This document shows positions 6,259 to 14,159 of a stretch of 64,000 bases of DNA, one piece after another; position 1 is the stretch's first letter, and each line of letters opens with the position of its first letter. Location of the stretch: contig JAHCMK010000002.1 in the NCBI GenBank assembly GCA_019192445.1, positions 310,001 through 374,000 on the forward strand, read 5' to 3'. Under the pieces are notes generated by a model. That model searched no databases and was not told the DNA's origin. It was given only the letters and a program-made list of their open reading frames with translations. Source of the DNA: Oceanococcus sp. HetDA_MAG_MS8 (GTDB taxonomy: Bacteria; Pseudomonadota; Gammaproteobacteria; Nevskiales; Oceanococcaceae). A program made the position numbers and the translations under genes.

Positions 6259-6271
6259 CTGAGGCACCCTG

Positions 6272-6301
6272 AATGGGGCACTGTGATGACAGTGCAAAGG
6301 G
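6272..6301. repeat. 30-bp hairpin direct repeat, copy 1
   Basis: A 30-base sequence identical to 7935-7964. It contains the perfect inverted repeat GCACTGT-GATG-ACAGTGC. It lies 13 bases after the dbpA stop and immediately before hairpin element A. The identity continues imperfectly for about another ten bases. The function is unknown; it could be a recombination scar or a repeat-borne RNA hairpin. Confidence 0.85.
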
Positions 6302-6312
6302 TCAACTCTTAG

Positions 6313-6386
6313 GGAGGCGCTGAAGAAATCCGCGAGCGAAGCAAGGTGGCCCGCCGCCGGAGCACAGCGATTTATTCAGCGTCTCC
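6313..6386. repeat. Palindromic non-coding element A (74 bp, internally deleted)
   Basis: Bounded by 12-bp terminal inverted repeats (GGAGGCGCTGAA and TTCAGCGTCTCC, one mismatch). The left 48 bases and right 18 bases are nearly identical to element B (9018-9158), but the 67 bases between two GAGC tetranucleotides of B are missing. It is therefore an internally deleted member of the same family, sitting in the convergent gap between dbpA and the toxin gene. Confidence 0.85.
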
Positions 6387-6410
6387 TTAGCGGGTAGCTC
6401 GACGCGTAAG

Positions 6411-6710
6411 TTAGTGATAGTCGTCTTCGCGCTGATGACGAAGCGCCAGAACGGTGACCGTTTGCGCGTCATCTATTTCGAAGAGAGCCACATAACCGGC
6501 GCCACCGAAGGGAATGACCAACTCGCGTAAAAATGGGTTGAGGGGGTCAGCCTTCCTACAGGAAAAAGGAAACTCCTCCAGTACGCCCCATGCCCGCTGG
6601 ATGGTCGATAGTGCTCGCTTGCCGACCTCGGGATCAGTTTGAGCAAAAAACTCGAACAGCCTCTCCAGATCAGCCTTGGCCTCTGCGGTAAACCGAAGCT
6701 GAAAACTCAC
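6411..6710 (-). CDS. RelE/ParE family toxin
   Basis: 99-residue toxin of a type II toxin-antitoxin pair, RelE/ParE superfamily. Visible are the N-terminal helical region LRFTAEAKADLERLFEFF and the central strand FLRELVIPFGGAGYVALFEI. The C-terminal VTVLALRHQREDDYH carries the basic/His cluster (LRHQREDD) found in ParE-like toxins. Whether it targets gyrase or ribosome-bound mRNA cannot be told from sequence. The start codon overlaps the antitoxin stop by four bases, so the two are translationally coupled. Confidence 0.88.
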   Translation of the reverse strand: MSFQLRFTAEAKADLERLFEFFAQTDPEVGKRALSTIQRAWGVLEEFPFSCRKADPLNPFLRELVIPFGGAGYVALFEIDDAQTVTVLALRHQREDDYH

Positions 6711-6973
6711 CCTTGGTGCTGAGCTGCCTCAAGGATGGATTGCAAAGACTCCATCACTTCATCTTTATCAAAGTACTCGCCTGTTGCCTTGGCGGCTTCA
6801 CGGGCGGCTAGACCACGCTCCAGGAAGGTCTTTTGGTTCTTGCGGTGCTGAATCTGGCGTTTGAGTGAATCCTCCACAAACCCGCTTAGTGACTCACCGT
6901 CTTTAAGCACACTCTCGACCTCCCGTCGTAGCTCGGGCGTGACACGAAGCGGAGGAATTGTTGCCGATTTCAT
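6707..6973 (-). CDS. Antitoxin of the RelE/ParE pair (YlcI/YnfO-like)
   Basis: 88-residue antitoxin upstream of the toxin. The N-terminus (IPPLRVTPELRREVESVLKDGESLSGFVEDSLKRQI) looks like a ribbon-helix-helix DNA-binding fold, and the C-terminus (YFDKDEVMESLQSILEAA) is an amphipathic toxin-neutralising helix. The open frame continues upstream to 7195, but residues before the ATG at 6973 are low-complexity Ala/Gly and do not look like this family. No strong Shine-Dalgarno precedes 6973. A palindrome-rich stretch directly upstream (6983-6999) is a likely autoregulatory operator. Confidence 0.8.
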   Translation of the reverse strand: MKSATIPPLRVTPELRREVESVLKDGESLSGFVEDSLKRQIQHRKNQKTFLERGLAAREAAKATGEYFDKDEVMESLQSILEAAQHQG

Positions 6974-6982
6974 AAGCAAACC

Positions 6983-6999
6983 AATGCATTGCATATGCA
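6983..6999. promoter_or_regulatory. Candidate toxin-antitoxin operator
   Basis: Two adjacent palindromes, AATGCATT (6983-6990) and TGCATATGCA (6990-6999), give three overlapping TGCAT repeats 10-27 bases upstream of the antitoxin ATG. Ribbon-helix-helix antitoxins typically bind such short repeated half-sites to autoregulate. A TGTAAT at 6998-7003 on the minus strand could be the -10 box. Inference from position and symmetry. Confidence 0.5.
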
Positions 7000-7127
7000 T
7001 TACACGATACGCCGCGCCAGAATCCTCGGCAACCCCTTTCGCAGTTCCGCCCATCGCCGCTGACGCCGCGCCGGGCGCTGCCTGTGACACCGCGGCACAG
7101 CCTGCGGCGGCACTCCCGCGCAGCCAC

Positions 7128-7408
7128 TCATGGGAATGCACCAGACTGGCCGCCCTTGTACAGCAGCATGACCGCGTTGGCGGCTGACTCGACAAGCATA
7201 CCTAGGGTTCGCGCCTCAACCATCCCCACCATCAGAGCGGGGACGACCAACAAGCCGATGCGAACACCCTGCGGGGATGTCGAGAGCAGAAAAGGATAAG
7301 GGCCATACCCAGCGACATGCCGCCGTGGGTCGCACGCAGATCCGTCAGAGCCACCCCATGCTCGATCATGGCTCCGATGGCAGGATTCAGAGCCGCCGCA
7401 GGGGCTTC
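7128..7408 (-). pseudogene. DUF4345-like membrane protein remnant (frameshifted, N-terminus missing)
   Basis: The reverse strand encodes two pieces in different frames that join into a DUF4345-like membrane protein. The first, just after the TonB-like gene stop, reads ALNPAIGAMIEHGVALTDLRATHGG and then MSLGMALILF. The second reads PQGVRIGLLVVPALMVG followed by MVEARTLGMLVESAANAVML and ends at a stop at 7128. The TDLRxxHGG and hydrophobic gRxxGxLVE blocks are those of DUF4345. The frame changes near 7285. There is no start codon of its own, because the first piece is in frame with the preceding gene's stop. I conclude a decayed gene. Confidence 0.55.
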
Positions 7409-7798
7409 TCAGAGGACGGATTCAGGCCTGCGCTTGGCTATGGCAAATTCCATCACCATGGTGCATTGACCCGGTTGCCCGGACGCCTTGAAGCGCCAGT
7501 TTGACAACGCGACCTCGGTTGCATGCTCGAAAACGCCGGGCGGACTGGCCTGCAAGGACTGCGTGGATATCACCTGCCCGTAGGCCGAATACTCCACCTC
7601 AATCAGCACCCAACCCTCCTGTCCGGAAAGGATGGCGTTGCGGGGGTATTTGGGTGGAACCCGCAGTATCGCCATTGCGGGACATCCTCTGCCCTGAATA
7701 TCCGGCCGCTCCGCGACCGGCAACGCATCGGGTACCTCCGGCGCCATGGCGCAACCGAAAAGCGTCAGCGCCAAGGACAAGAGAAAAACTGCTTTCAT
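7409..7798 (-). CDS. TonB C-terminal-domain lipoprotein
   Basis: 129-residue predicted lipoprotein. The signal MKAVFLLSLALTLFGC ends in a lipobox (L-F-G-C). The remainder is a TonB C-terminal-like fold: PPKYPRNAILSGQEGWVLIE, GQVISTQSLQASPPGVFEHA and VALSNWRFKA. The usual TonB transmembrane anchor and Pro/Lys spacer are absent, so it is unlikely to transduce energy from ExbBD in the standard way. Start taken at the ATG 7798; a TTG two codons upstream is possible. It is followed at once by the DUF4345 remnant. Confidence 0.75.
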   Translation of the reverse strand: MKAVFLLSLALTLFGCAMAPEVPDALPVAERPDIQGRGCPAMAILRVPPKYPRNAILSGQEGWVLIEVEYSAYGQVISTQSLQASPPGVFEHATEVALSNWRFKASGQPGQCTMVMEFAIAKRRPESVL

Positions 7799-7934
7799 GG
7801 GCAATTACCGCTGTCAACACCTATCCCGACGTGGGGCCGGAGAGCAAAGTCACCGGCGCGCATCCAGCCTGCAGATGCATAGGCTCAGTAAGGGATACGA
7901 GGTTGCCGCAGTGCGGCGGACATCCGTGGCCATT

Positions 7935-10055: not shown

Positions 10056-10772
10056 CTAACCGCCGCAGCTCTTGAGCAATTCCTTGGCCAGCGCAATGGA
10101 GTCGGCCTTGTGCTCGGCATCGTCGTCGCTGCGCTTGAGATTGACGTTCAGCGAGTGCTTACCGACCAGCACAAGAAGTGCGCGACTCTTCGGCAGCCCG
10201 CCCCAGGCAGCCGCGTCGCCAAGGTCGTCTTCATTGACCGTCACATAATTGATCTTGCTGACCATCGACCGCGCGAAATCGCGCGCCATATCTTGGTGCT
10301 CGGCGGCAACACCCTCTGCCGCTTTGTCGCTTAAGTTATCGGCCGTTCTTGCCTGCTCTTCGGCGGAGCGCGGCCGGTAGGCTGCCGCAAAGCGGGCTTT
10401 GGCTTTCTCAGCGTCCTCGGCAAATTCCTCGATACTCAGCGAGGCCTCGTCATCGATCGAATTCTCGAAGGTCATCGTACCCACCTGCATTTTCATGGTG
10501 CGGCTACCCGACCAGCTGTAGTCGCAACTTGTCGAGCGAGCAATCGTGAAGGTTTCTCCCGTGATCTCGCCCACATCGCCGATGACCGAACGCAAACGCT
10601 CTTCCGTCAGCAGCGTACAGGGATCAGCCATTGCGTCGGCTAAGCAGGTCGCGACCAGAGATTCTGCACTCGCAGAACCTCCAGAACATGCCGCGATGAT
10701 CGAGACCGCCAGGGCCGTGGTTGACGCGGCGTACAGGCGCCGATGGAACTGAGAATAAATGGCGGTGACCAT
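10056..10772 (-). CDS. Predicted lipoprotein with DUF3558-like region
   Basis: About 238 residues. The leader HRRLYAASTTALAVSIIAAC ends in a lipobox (I-A-A-C). The segment DPCTLLTEERLRSVIG resembles the start of DUF3558-type lipoprotein domains (a DPCxLLT motif), with a later Cys (STSCDYSWSG) and a C-terminal helix ending KELLKSCGG. GGAG nine bases before the ATG at 10772 supports this start; an earlier ATG at 10793 is possible. It follows the exported 286-residue protein by a few bases and is probably co-transcribed with it. Function unknown. Confidence 0.68.
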   Translation of the reverse strand: MVTAIYSQFHRRLYAASTTALAVSIIAACSGGSASAESLVATCLADAMADPCTLLTEERLRSVIGDVGEITGETFTIARSTSCDYSWSGSRTMKMQVGTMTFENSIDDEASLSIEEFAEDAEKAKARFAAAYRPRSAEEQARTADNLSDKAAEGVAAEHQDMARDFARSMVSKINYVTVNEDDLGDAAAWGGLPKSRALLVLVGKHSLNVNLKRSDDDAEHKADSIALAKELLKSCGG

Positions 10773-10797
10773 GGAGAAGCGCTCCGAAGACATGGGA

Positions 10798-11658
10798 TCA
10801 ATTTCCAAAAAGTTTGTCGAAGGCCTTGTTCAGCGCCTTGTCGACCGCGCTGTCCGTAGCTTCGTCCACTTCGGCCTCCGTGCGGTCTTCGATACGCCCC
10901 TGCTGGCGCTCCGCCTTCTTACCGAACAGCCCGCCGAGGCCCTTCAACCCCCTCCCCTCATCGCTGGCCGCAGCGCGATCGTCATCGCCGCTGAAGACGG
11001 AGTTGCTGCCGAATCCCGGCAGGCTAACGGGCTCAGAAGGCAGATTGAAGCGGTCCTGCGCGACCCGCTGGTCCGTCAACGCACTCACCCGAAACTCATC
11101 CCCCATGCGTAACATTCCGCGATTGCGCTTTTCGAACTCGTCCAGCATCACGTCTGCGCTGCGGGTGTCTTTGCCCGCGGCCTGCAAGAGAGTACGCGTC
11201 ATCAGACCCATGGCCTGCTGGAACTCACGCGCCCGAGCATCTTTGGACAAAACCACCTCGCTGGTTTGCGGCCTGCCATCGTCATCGAGATAGCGGATTT
11301 CCCAGACTTCCCCGCGGATTCCGGCGACGGTTTCGGAGCGACTGGTTTTGCGCAGATCCTCCACCTTGGCCACGCTGGGACCCGGGTCAGGGATTGCGCC
11401 ACCAAACATGCTCATCATGGCCGAGGCGTCCATCACGGTTTCTCCAGTAACGACAAACATGCGGCCGTCGCGGATAACCATGTATCCCTCGCCTTTGTCA
11501 TCGGTATCCATGCGCAGTTTGTCGCCGGAATATTCGATATCGGTGACATCCTTGCCGTTCATGATGGAAGCCGTGCCAGCGAAGGCTGTACCGACTAGCG
11601 AAGTGGCGAGTAGAGCCACCACGAAGGCACTACTGAAAGCGTTGTGGAGCGTGTTCAT
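10798..11658 (-). CDS. Exported hypothetical protein (DUF4412-like region possible)
   Basis: 286-residue protein with a clear signal peptide (FSSAFVVALLATSLVGTAFA, cleavage AFA-GT). The mature N-terminal half (DIEYSGDKLRMDTDDKGEGY, VIRDGRMFVVTGE) reads like a DUF4412/LolA-type beta-sheet domain that could hold a hydrophobic ligand. The C-terminal 90 residues are charged and low-complexity, with Gly-rich and coiled segments. It is first in a two-gene unit with the 10056 lipoprotein and is transcribed divergently from the LuxR/hydrolase regulator, which makes it the obvious candidate target. Confidence 0.68.
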   Translation of the reverse strand: MNTLHNAFSSAFVVALLATSLVGTAFAGTASIMNGKDVTDIEYSGDKLRMDTDDKGEGYMVIRDGRMFVVTGETVMDASAMMSMFGGAIPDPGPSVAKVEDLRKTSRSETVAGIRGEVWEIRYLDDDGRPQTSEVVLSKDARAREFQQAMGLMTRTLLQAAGKDTRSADVMLDEFEKRNRGMLRMGDEFRVSALTDQRVAQDRFNLPSEPVSLPGFGSNSVFSGDDDRAAASDEGRGLKGLGGLFGKKAERQQGRIEDRTEAEVDEATDSAVDKALNKAFDKLFGN

Positions 11659-11781
11659 CGCGAGTGTCCCTTAGCAAACTACCAGGCCGATGACTATGCG
11701 CGTCGTGCTCGGGATCACCAATACCCCACATGGTGTATTCCTTTCGTAAACTGGCGGAGGTCTAGATCATCCTGAAGTCCG

Positions 11782-13092
11782 ATGGGGAATGGTGATACGC
11801 ATCCTTTGATTGCTTTGTGTTACGCCAGTGGATCCGACTCACGGCGCTTCCCAGAGCTGATGCAGGCCATCTACGAGGCGGCTCAGTGCTCGCCGCGAGC
11901 GGCTGGCGGACTTCTGGACTCGCTGGAACCGCACCTGCAGCAGGCGGCAACCATTTCCGCGCAGATGCCGAACGGCTGGAACGAAAGACTGGCGGCATCC
12001 CTCCAGGCCATCTTTGGCTTTAGCAAGACCGAACTGCAGATCATTGCCGCACTCCTCGAAGGGGCATCGCTAGCCGATATCGCTGTTCAACGACATCGCT
12101 CCTTGCATACCCTGCGCACCCAGCTTAAGCGTCTGTTGGCGCGGACTCCCTGTCGCACGCAAGCCGAACTCATCCTCCTGGTTCGCGGCTTGGCGTTGGT
12201 GTCCGCGCAGGAGCATGCGGGGACGGCTGTCGCGGGAGAGGTCATCCGTACGGAACTCGCTGACGGCAGTCATATCTGTCACTTTGAGTACGGGGCGACC
12301 GACGGATATCCGGTTCTGCTCCTGCACACCGCTCTGCTCGGCCCCGAACTGCCGCCCACCGTCACTGCAGCTGCTAAGAAATTCGGTCTGCGGATCTTGG
12401 CCCTTGCTCGTCCAGGTTACGCCGGTAGCAGTGCGCCGCCGCCAGCGGACCATGACTTGTCGATGGTCTCGCGCCGCATCGCCGACTGGCTAGAGCGACG
12501 CGGCTTGGGTCCGCTGCCAGTTCTTGGCAACGTCGTCGGTGCAATTTACGCGCACGCGCTCGCACGCGAGTGCCCGGATCTGCTCACTCGGGTTTTCACC
12601 TGCGCCGGCCCGGTTCCCTTGACGCCAGCGAATTATGAGGCGTTGCCGATCAGTCGCCGTGTTTGGGCACAACTGGTCCGTCGGCAGCCTGGCTTACTGT
12701 TGCCATTTGCGCGTCTCGGCGTGGGCTATGTCCGCTCAGGACACGCAAGACGTTCCTTACAAACCGCGTACCGTGCGCAAGCGGCGGATGCTGCGGCTCT
12801 GGAAGACAACAGTTTGGTCGAAGGTCTGTGCCCCGCAGTATCCAGTGCGGCGGCAGCCGGTGCGGAACGGTTTGTCGAAGCGGTCACTCTGCAGTGCCGC
12901 GACTGGCAATCGCTTAGTCGGCATGCCGTACCCGTCACCGCGATTCATGGTGCGGCTGACGACATCGTGGATATCAGCGACGTGCGCGGGTTCTACCCCG
13001 ACAAGCCGGTAGTCGCAGTCCCCAATGCGGGCCAGCTATTGCTCTACGCTCGCCCGGAGGCGGTCTTTGCTGAGATTTCTCAAGAAGGATAA
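11782..13092 (+). CDS. LuxR-type HTH regulator fused to a catalytically degenerate alpha/beta-hydrolase
   Basis: 436-residue two-domain protein. Residues about 70-130 hold a LuxR/GerE-like helix-turn-helix (FGFSKTELQIIAALLEGASL, ADIAVQRHRSLHTLRTQLKR). Residues about 150-430 follow the alpha/beta-hydrolase fold: VLLLHTALLG, ILALARPGYAGSS, the nucleophile elbow VLGNVVGAIYAH, the acid-turn HGAADDIVD, and the last-strand motif VPNAGQLLLY. The elbow reads G-N-V-V-G instead of G-x-S-x-G, and the His position (normally GH) is Gln. Only the Asp remains, so hydrolysis is not expected. A ligand-sensing regulator is the best reading. Divergent from 10798-11658 with a 123-base gap. Confidence 0.85.
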   Translation: MGNGDTHPLIALCYASGSDSRRFPELMQAIYEAAQCSPRAAGGLLDSLEPHLQQAATISAQMPNGWNERLAASLQAIFGFSKTELQIIAALLEGASLADIAVQRHRSLHTLRTQLKRLLARTPCRTQAELILLVRGLALVSAQEHAGTAVAGEVIRTELADGSHICHFEYGATDGYPVLLLHTALLGPELPPTVTAAAKKFGLRILALARPGYAGSSAPPPADHDLSMVSRRIADWLERRGLGPLPVLGNVVGAIYAHALARECPDLLTRVFTCAGPVPLTPANYEALPISRRVWAQLVRRQPGLLLPFARLGVGYVRSGHARRSLQTAYRAQAADAAALEDNSLVEGLCPAVSSAAAAGAERFVEAVTLQCRDWQSLSRHAVPVTAIHGAADDIVDISDVRGFYPDKPVVAVPNAGQLLLYARPEAVFAEISQEG

Positions 13093-13299: not shown

Positions 13300-14159
13300 T
13301 TAATGCCGCCTAAACCGGCGCGGGAGTTTTGGGTCTTGTGCAGCCTGAGGAGGGTGACGGCGTTCGATATTGGAGTTGTGATCGCCTTGCAGCCAGTGAA
13401 AAGCGTAGCCATACACACCGCGGAAGTTATTCGGCCATCGAGGGTGGTGGCCACTGGGCATTGCGTAGAGTCGAACATCAGCGCCATGCCGGGACAAGGT
13501 CTGAGCCGCTGTTTGTGCGTAGTGGAAGGGGGTAATGTCATCCGACACACCCTGCACGAGAAAAAAACGCTTTGCGGCTGCGCCGCGCATAGGTGGCAGC
13601 TGGTGCTCACGAAAAACTGAACCCGTTAGCAATGCGCCCGAGACATCGGAGTTCGTCAGCGCAGCCGTCATCACAGCCCCGCCACTAGATGATGCCCCCA
13701 TCAAAATAATCCGCTGCGGATCGATGCGCACACGGCCTCTCACATCGTCTATCACCGCAGTAATAAACTCAGACGTGGTGAACTCCACCTGCACATCCAT
13801 GATCTTTTCGGTGGGCCAGACGATTCTTTGCTCTGGCGACCACTTAACACTCAAAAGTTGAGCCATCACGAAGTCCACAGGCATCGCATTCAGGTAGATA
13901 GCCCCGTAATTAGTCCTTTGTGAAGCCCCACCCGGCCCTCCAGGGAGCACAACAACCAGGGCGTACCGGCCGCCGGCACCCCGAAGTCCGTACGTGGCGG
14001 AAAGTAGAAGTAGCGTTGCTTGGGGTTTTCCAGCGTGACAGCCATCGACCACTCGTCATCTATAAAGGCGGCATCGTCCCATGTGGCGGGCTGGGCTATG
14101 ACGTCCAAGGATGTCAGTGCAAGGCATAGCAGCACAGCCTTGAGGGATCGTTTGGACAC
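13300..14159 (-). pseudogene. Frameshifted alpha/beta-hydrolase (esterase/depolymerase-like)
   Basis: Two overlapping minus-strand frames form one protein. The first (from GTG 14159, with GGGAGG eight bases upstream) has a signal peptide (SLKAVLLCLALTSLDVIAQP) and the strand YFYFPPRTDFGVPAAG. The second frame continues RYALVVVLPGGPGG, then the nucleophile elbow LMGASSSGGAVMT, DDITPFHYAQT and SGHHPRW. The junction is a single-base change near 13968, where GCGGCCGG is read. All catalytic elements (G-x-S-x-G, Asp, His) are intact in the second part, so a sequencing error is possible. Otherwise it is a recent pseudogene. Confidence 0.75.

Follow-up and report, generated by a model that had tools for sequence, protein, structure and literature searches.

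An open reading frame in the window (the whole 64,000-nucleotide stretch of DNA analysed) encodes a protein in which a LuxR/NarL-like HTH is followed by an alpha/beta-hydrolase (ABH) domain with Val and Gln at the places of the catalytic Ser and His, and we lean towards the view that this protein is a one-component regulator that uses its dead hydrolase pocket as the sensor and controls exported-looking proteins. We computed the fold of the domain, the loss of Ser and His, the conservation of this loss, purifying selection in one pair of orthologues, the synteny and a palindrome shared with relatives. The features of the regulator are, in window coordinates:

11782-13092, plus strand: HTH/pseudo-ABH fusion regulator of 436 aa (open reading frame, Pfam, orthologues, trees)
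11782-11979, plus strand: N-terminal helical segment, residues 1-66 (family alignment)
11983-12141, plus strand: LuxR/NarL-like HTH, about residues 68-120 (weak GerE and LIC13292 matches, AlphaFold2)
12097-12129, plus strand: putative recognition helix RSLHTLRTQLK, within the HTH
12229-13089, plus strand: pseudo-ABH domain, residues 150-436 (PDB alignment, hhalign, domain model)
12532-12534, plus strand: V251, nucleophile position, in GNVVG (alignment to PDB 6i8w, hhalign)
12958-12960, plus strand: D393, acid position kept, in HGAADD (hhalign)
13033-13035, plus strand: Q418, position of the catalytic His, in AGQLLL (alignment to PDB 6i8w, hhalign)

The regulator and its hydrolase domain

The HTH was recognised through Pfam GerE (PF00196) at residues 80-132, a very weak match (E 0.15, 12.1 bits against a cut-off of 23.5), and through the LIC13292 regulator family of NCBIfam at residues 77-129 (E 0.0027, far under that model's cut-off). 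GerE also matched the orthologue L007 (E 0.014) and a Ruegeria homologue (E 0.0011), both under the cut-off. The full-length AlphaFold2 model is poor, with a mean pLDDT of 51.2, and within it residues 81-120 of the HTH reach 85-89. The C-terminal part resembles Pfam Abhydrolase_1 over residues 176-401 (E 3.5e-4; 20.8 bits, weak against a cut-off of 25.8) and several hydrolases in NCBIfam, every one of these matches lying under its cut-off. The protein belongs to the HTH-ABH fusion family that we collected, HTH then ABH, and can be aligned with it across both parts. The first-pass annotation had described 11782-13092 as an HTH regulator with a dead ABH half, a description that is borne out by the open reading frame at these coordinates, the weak GerE and Abhydrolase_1 matches, the mapping of the triad and the fold model.

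That the hydrolase half keeps its fold, as had also been claimed, agrees with structure prediction. An AlphaFold2 model of residues 150-436 (pLDDT 78.8, pTM 0.78; the best of five with pLDDT of 39.5-78.8, from an alignment of three sequences) matched ABH structures: the best Foldseek match was 9wlv (E 2.3e-14), and VIA-align gave ABH structures Z scores of 18.0-19.6 among the matches listed, over model residues 1-287. Among the matches listed are rice DWARF14 (5dj5, Z 18.1) and Arabidopsis DLK2 (7tvw, Z 18.2); GID1 is absent among the best 50 structural matches listed, which is uninformative either way. On this model, a canonical ABH fold for the C-terminal half is supported.

The catalytic positions were placed by several alignments. 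A phmmer match to PDB 6i8w aligned GNVVG with GNSMG, and a second stretch of the same match, not significant alone, aligned NAGQLLL with NCGHVPM. An hhalign comparison of the window protein and its orthologues L005, L006 and L007, taken as a profile, with a set of 14 ABH proteins that stand alone gave a probability of 99.8 (E 2e-27) and set V251 on the nucleophile Ser, D393 on the acid and Q418 on the His; GNVVG was paired with GISGG, HGAADD with HGARDV, and NAGQLLL with the His motif. A multiple alignment with the intact fusions L009 and L010 (GFSGG, HGEDD, AGHF) gave identical triad columns. The nucleophile-acid-His triad is absent from the window protein, and all three comparisons agree with the earlier proposal of Val for Ser in GNVVG and Gln for His in AGQLLL. 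A true elbow or His elsewhere in the chain, the possibility that had been named as fatal to the dead triad, was rejected, the alignments supporting GNVVG as the elbow. By the usual ABH rules, this supports a pocket predicted to be catalytically dead, with Ser and His lost and Asp kept.

The three orthologues come from two genera and share 39-44% identity with the window protein over 366-427 residues. Alignment with active HTH-hydrolase fusions showed the losses of Ser and His to be conserved, as had been left for checking: Val-Asp-Gln (V-D-Q) stands at the triad in 4/4 proteins, the window protein and L005, L006 and L007. The L005/L006 pair has 31 synonymous and 11 nonsynonymous differences and a dN/dS of 0.114 (0.156 for the ABH part). 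Since Val and Gln are identical in all three orthologues and dN/dS is low in this pair, we regard the two residues as not due to chance; the low dN/dS, from one pair only, also argues against decay. This pair is thus under purifying selection.

The fusion family and its triad

We aligned and counted 65 distinct HTH-ABH fusions. Ser-Asp-His is found in 12 of them (13 if Cys is counted) and the full Ser-Asp-His is missing in 53; 40 have no Ser or Cys nucleophile, 41 no His and 29 neither. Free-standing ABH frames, namely those in the fetched loci that passed the coverage filter (n=33), have Ser-Asp-His in 30 cases, Asp-Asp-His in one and no His at the aligned place in two; a few of the 33 are neighbours of matches (one each in L002 and L007) or own-genome frames, not class or phylum matches. 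The fusion sample may lean towards broken members, since the search seeds held intact and broken proteins alike, and related rows are not independent.

The 65 leave out exact or near copies of one region, the cut copies L050, L051 and L060 (the last a cut copy of L007 that is still in the 66-row alignment), partial fusion matches in G697, G615 and G481, and two further loci. One of these, L148 (G459:C16), has its HTH and ABH parts in two overlapping frames, whether through a gene split, a frameshift or faulty assembly; the other, L073 (5527-7200, from MAG UBA7415), is a fusion homologue with an in-frame TAG inside the ABH domain and fails the coverage filter. Plasmid homologues L164-L166 appear only in the tree to which three plasmid rows were added. 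For L143, L145 and L146 two alignments disagree on the acid column, with no Ser or His in either. Another locus, L025 (G204:C2), may be an unfused counterpart: its LuxR-type frame overlaps the adjacent, intact ABH frame, and the two come in the order of the fusion.

By maximum likelihood (quick mode), the window protein groups in a 24-row clade in which Ser-Asp-His never occurs. Support for this clade (SH-aLRT) was 98, or 93 without the triad columns, or 92 for 27 rows with the plasmids added, and the V-D-Q group of four received 97, 98 and 99 in the three trees. The fewest intact/broken changes on the tree are 6, and the broken groups number 12 if losses are irreversible and the root is set at the midpoint; the deep joins are unsure because several branches are long, and the root was not inferred. 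The columns of the nucleophile, the oxyanion and the His vary widely across the 24 rows of the clade, and Gln occupies the His position in 10/24 members, the V-D-Q four included.

That triad residues were lost in many different ways among relatives would suit an ABH half in decay, left over from a regulator that formerly relied on an enzyme, and two related loci do look broken, L073 by its in-frame stop and L148 by its two frames. This would however sit poorly with an ABH-part dN/dS of 0.16 (one pair) and with identical replacements at 39-44% identity, and we consider decay very improbable. The absence of stops in the 65 rows is no evidence on this point, because the rows were chosen as open frames.

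Asp-Asp-His, the pattern of epoxide hydrolases and haloalkane dehalogenases, stands at the triad columns of L117 (G505; one of the 24 clade rows) and of its near relative, the Ruegeria sp. TM1040 fusion. Judged by these residues, L117 and the TM1040 fusion (L164 4986-6623, on a megaplasmid) may be catalytically active exceptions in a dead clade. That some relatives may be active speaks for an ABH half that is still an enzyme with other chemistry, such as an Asp nucleophile or acid-base catalysis without Ser; since Val, Asp and Gln give the window protein and its orthologues neither a nucleophile nor a base where these normally stand, we judge this improbable for the protein studied here.

The part in front of the HTH is short in the window protein. 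Across the 65 fusions the open frame before the HTH has a median of 194 residues, compared with 67 in the window protein and 89 in the Oceanococcus-genus relatives; short segments also occur in L135 (92) and in L110, L112 and L115 (68-72); L112 and L115 start at the edge of their locus or close to it, so that they may be truncated, and a value of 5 for L019 is an alignment artefact, its frame being 587 aa. The N-terminal segment of the fusions looks PAS-like by eye: L007 gave a PAS_8 match under the cut-off (E 0.08), and PAS had no match in the window protein up to E 1 in Pfam and none in L009 at E 0.01. The N-terminal shortening is established and a PAS domain is not. With most of this segment lost in the window protein and two Oceanococcus-genus relatives, no candidate sensor of any size remains besides the dead hydrolase.

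ABH folds without chemistry act as binding modules in the neuroligins, and the dead ABH domain might likewise be a protein-protein module, serving dimerisation or docking with no small molecule bound. The mixed columns of the clade would fit such a role, as they give the impression that some branches depend less on the exact pocket. Val and Gln are nevertheless fixed in 4/4 V-D-Q proteins and Gln recurs in 10/24 members of the clade, suggesting a kept residue, and the window lineage retains no other sizeable sensor segment; we therefore hold a purely protein-binding role to be rather unlikely and keep the hydrolase pocket as the preferred sensor.

Within the window's family the gene is present in 3/4 genomes and missing from G001, a close genome of the same genus that also lacks the first divergent gene. 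Full-length fusions were found in 7/85 genomes of the order, and matches, in which fusions are mixed with free-standing ABH proteins, in at least 37/369 genomes of the class (up to five candidates scored per genome) and at least 43/398 of the phylum (up to four). Named fusions outside the class are L072, from a Rhizobiaceae MAG, and those on plasmids of Ruegeria, Aliiroseovarius and Pseudosulfitobacter. A search of genome contigs with the window protein alone and a search of viral contigs with query A2 each returned no relative.

Divergent genes and the palindrome

Upstream of the regulator, the window carries:

10798-11658, minus strand: d1, a divergent exported-looking protein of 286 aa, predicted target (open reading frame, comparison with G002 and G003)
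10056-10808, minus strand: second divergent gene, DUF3558-like with a lipobox-like N-terminus by eye, predicted target
11721-11738, no strand assigned: palindrome ATACCCCA-CA-TGGTGTAT, predicted 7-2-7 operator, shared with relatives

The divergent pair that had been put forward as likely targets does exist at 10798-11658 and 10056-10808, its export being judged by eye from the N-termini. The second protein matched DUF3558 with E 1.1e-6 and 29.1 bits (cut-off 34.1), and d1 had no match in Pfam up to E 1. In G002 and G003 the regulator lies beside a DUF3558-like homologue, a small exported-looking protein and, in the same place as d1, a short exported-looking protein that shares the C-terminal tail of d1. 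By locus, DUF3558-like homologues stand next to the regulator in L041 and L042, whereas in L043 (G038) the homologue is some 3 kb off. Two ideas on d1 were dropped: a DUF4412 assignment had no Pfam match and reached a probability of 0.6 percent by hhalign against the DUF4412 neighbour of another fusion, and a d1-like tail family across the clade, suspected by eye, was unsupported by phmmer and hmmsearch.

Further relatives have other exported or surface proteins nearby. At L043 9657-12804 (G038), curli-type genes (Pfam CsgF 3.9e-29, CsgG 3.7e-40, Curlin_rpt 1.1e-12) diverge from the L007 regulator, with a one-mismatch palindrome between them. The TM1040 and P. pseudonitzschiae fusions neighbour a VWA protein (in TM1040 by Pfam) and hypothetical proteins, L072 a ShlB-type transporter, and L019 and L120 a common exported-looking family (E 2.4e-58). 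Among the 19 loci read, 18 of them with the regulator, others such as L151, L154 and L159 have no such neighbour. We treat exported or surface-protein neighbours as putative targets, as a lead.

In three loci the pseudo-ABH regulator has a gene for an ABH-type enzyme as its neighbour: in the window at 13300-14052 on the minus strand (a Peptidase_S9 match, E 2e-6), in L043 at 6963-7901 on the plus strand (an ABH enzyme with Ser-Asp-His) and in L163 at 6269-7051 on the plus strand (dienelactone-hydrolase-like by eye). Such an enzyme might turn over the putative ligand of the regulator.

The gap at 11659-11781, in which the first-pass annotation had suggested a motif search, contains the 7-2-7 palindrome, shared with some relatives. 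It lies 43 bp before the ATG of the regulator and 62 bp before the divergent ATG, and is the single exact match in the 3.53-Mb window genome. The same gap between regulator and divergent gene holds ATACCCCA-GC-TGGGGTAT in G002 and G003, the two Oceanococcus-genus relatives, and in G038, of a second family, TTACCCCA-GG-TGGTGCAT with one mismatch lies between the regulator and csgF. Searched over seven genomes, the pattern TACCCCANNTGGKGTA had exact matches at three places, all in this gap (the window genome G000, G002 and G003). Scanning 12 regions for inverted repeats, with no motif supplied, brought up a perfect ATACACCA-CT-TGGTGTAT before the fusion gene of an alphaproteobacterial plasmid, that of Pseudosulfitobacter pseudonitzschiae, in the gap to the divergent gene; this is the sole exact match to a widened pattern in 87 kb. 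Wherever an exact copy occurs, its genome or record has no second one. The motif score in the window, G002 and G038 is partly post hoc, as the motif was first seen there by eye, and in the motif-free scan the imperfect G038 site was not ranked as a good palindrome and perfect palindromes arose elsewhere, for example in G505.

Besides the site at csgF, G038 has a one-mismatch site 117 bp before a region matching the third gene of the divergent operon of G002 (E 1.9e-16) and a third one inside a coding frame, and Aliiroseovarius has a single one-mismatch site immediately beyond the 3' end of its regulator gene. The palindrome was not found near the regulator in G505, G810, G226 or Ruegeria TM1040. 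Genomes without the regulator (G001, G037, G039) had no exact match, and G001 and G037 one one-mismatch place each. Genome-wide, with up to two mismatches, the palindrome matched less often than its reversed control in 7/7 genomes; allowing one mismatch at most, 3 places in the window genome compare with 9 for the control. A wider regulon in the window genome was considered and rejected: the one-mismatch sites G000:C2:289180, in a coding frame, and G000:C9:70683 are unconvincing, and the counts are under the reversed control. The palindrome evidence is the placement of the exact sites only, and a wider regulon is not claimable. A sigma-70 promoter scan of 11500-11900 found none.

NarL sites are likewise 7-2-7 inverted repeats, as a passage of PMC7419079 describes, and PMC4886647 gives TACYYMT as the NarL heptamer, to which the half-site TACCCCA conforms except at its last base. 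We regard the palindrome, on its placement, as a candidate operator that may tie the regulator to the divergent genes.

In the mechanism that we propose, the HTH, probably as a dimer, would bind TACCCCA-CA-TGGTGTA (11722-11737) between the regulator and the divergent genes at 11658-10056. The ABH domain, without Ser-His chemistry, would have kept its pocket to receive a small molecule, probably hydrophobic or resembling an ester or lactone; on binding, this ligand would change dimerisation or free the HTH and would set the expression of the exported-looking proteins, perhaps also of the regulator itself. Of the initial idea of a dead hydrolase acting as a small-molecule sensor, the dead pocket, its loss of residues in three orthologues, the attached HTH and the palindrome stand, and we infer the binding of DNA at the palindrome, the binding and nature of a ligand and the sign of regulation. 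Against this reading we count the sub-cut-off GerE match, the poor full-length model, the lack of enrichment of the palindrome, the relatives without the site, and G001.

Novelty and known systems

Open-licence literature, searched by title and the start of the abstract, yielded no description of LuxR-ABH fusions or of regulators with a dead hydrolase, and no term starting in hydrolase occurs in the main text of PMC3466318. Public records annotate TM1040_RS01565 as an alpha/beta fold hydrolase and K3556_RS16415 as a LuxR C-terminal-related regulator, so the architecture as such is on record, though without an interpretation in the literature searched. At slightly less than even confidence, we suggest that these proteins are widespread bacterial GID1-like receptors: transcription factors with an ABH sensor whose chemistry was lost several times independently and which control operons for exported or surface proteins (lipoproteins, curli, two-partner secretion, VWA), some through a shared 7-2-7 operator. 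The conversion of ABH enzymes into receptors is known from plant hormones; here it would have taken place in bacteria, within a single polypeptide that also carries a DNA-binding domain. Because intact and dead relatives occur side by side, the conversion is testable with simple genetics; the substrates of intact members would be clues to the ligands of dead ones, and the shared palindrome, if an operator, a ready reporter for ligand screens.

CsgD, the LuxR-type regulator of curli, is not known to have an ABH domain. Like it, the G038 orthologue is set against curli genes, being divergent from csgF, csgG and curlin-repeat genes, whereas the divergent genes of the window are not curli genes by Pfam. 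With NarL/LuxR-type regulators at large the window protein would share the HTH class, by its sub-cut-off GerE match, and the 7-2-7 palindromic site, here a predicted operator; unlike theirs, its sensor is neither a receiver nor an autoinducer domain, and its HTH precedes the sensor, whereas NarL carries its DNA-binding output domain at the C-terminus, as stated in the abstract of PMC4549865. In the RsbQ-RsbP system of Bacillus and others a bacterial ABH protein also senses, together with a PAS-containing signalling protein, but RsbQ is a separate polypeptide that needs its triad, which is not intact in the window protein; the outputs of RsbQ-PAS systems named in PMC3183031 are a phosphatase, a kinase or a diguanylate cyclase, and LuxR goes unmentioned in that text.

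The plant proteins DWARF14 and DLK2 belong to an ABH receptor family and are among the structural matches listed (5dj5, 7tvw). In the gibberellin receptor GID1, also of plants, an N-terminal lid closes over the ligand. DWARF14 keeps Ser-Asp-His, as an excerpt of PMC4875939 has it, and unlike the window protein is without a DNA-binding domain. GID1 is an ABH fold turned receptor that signals to transcription and has lost its catalytic His, which the same excerpt gives as replaced by Val and which is Q418 here; GID1 works through partner proteins, whereas in the window protein the HTH is fused to the ABH domain and the Ser is lost too.
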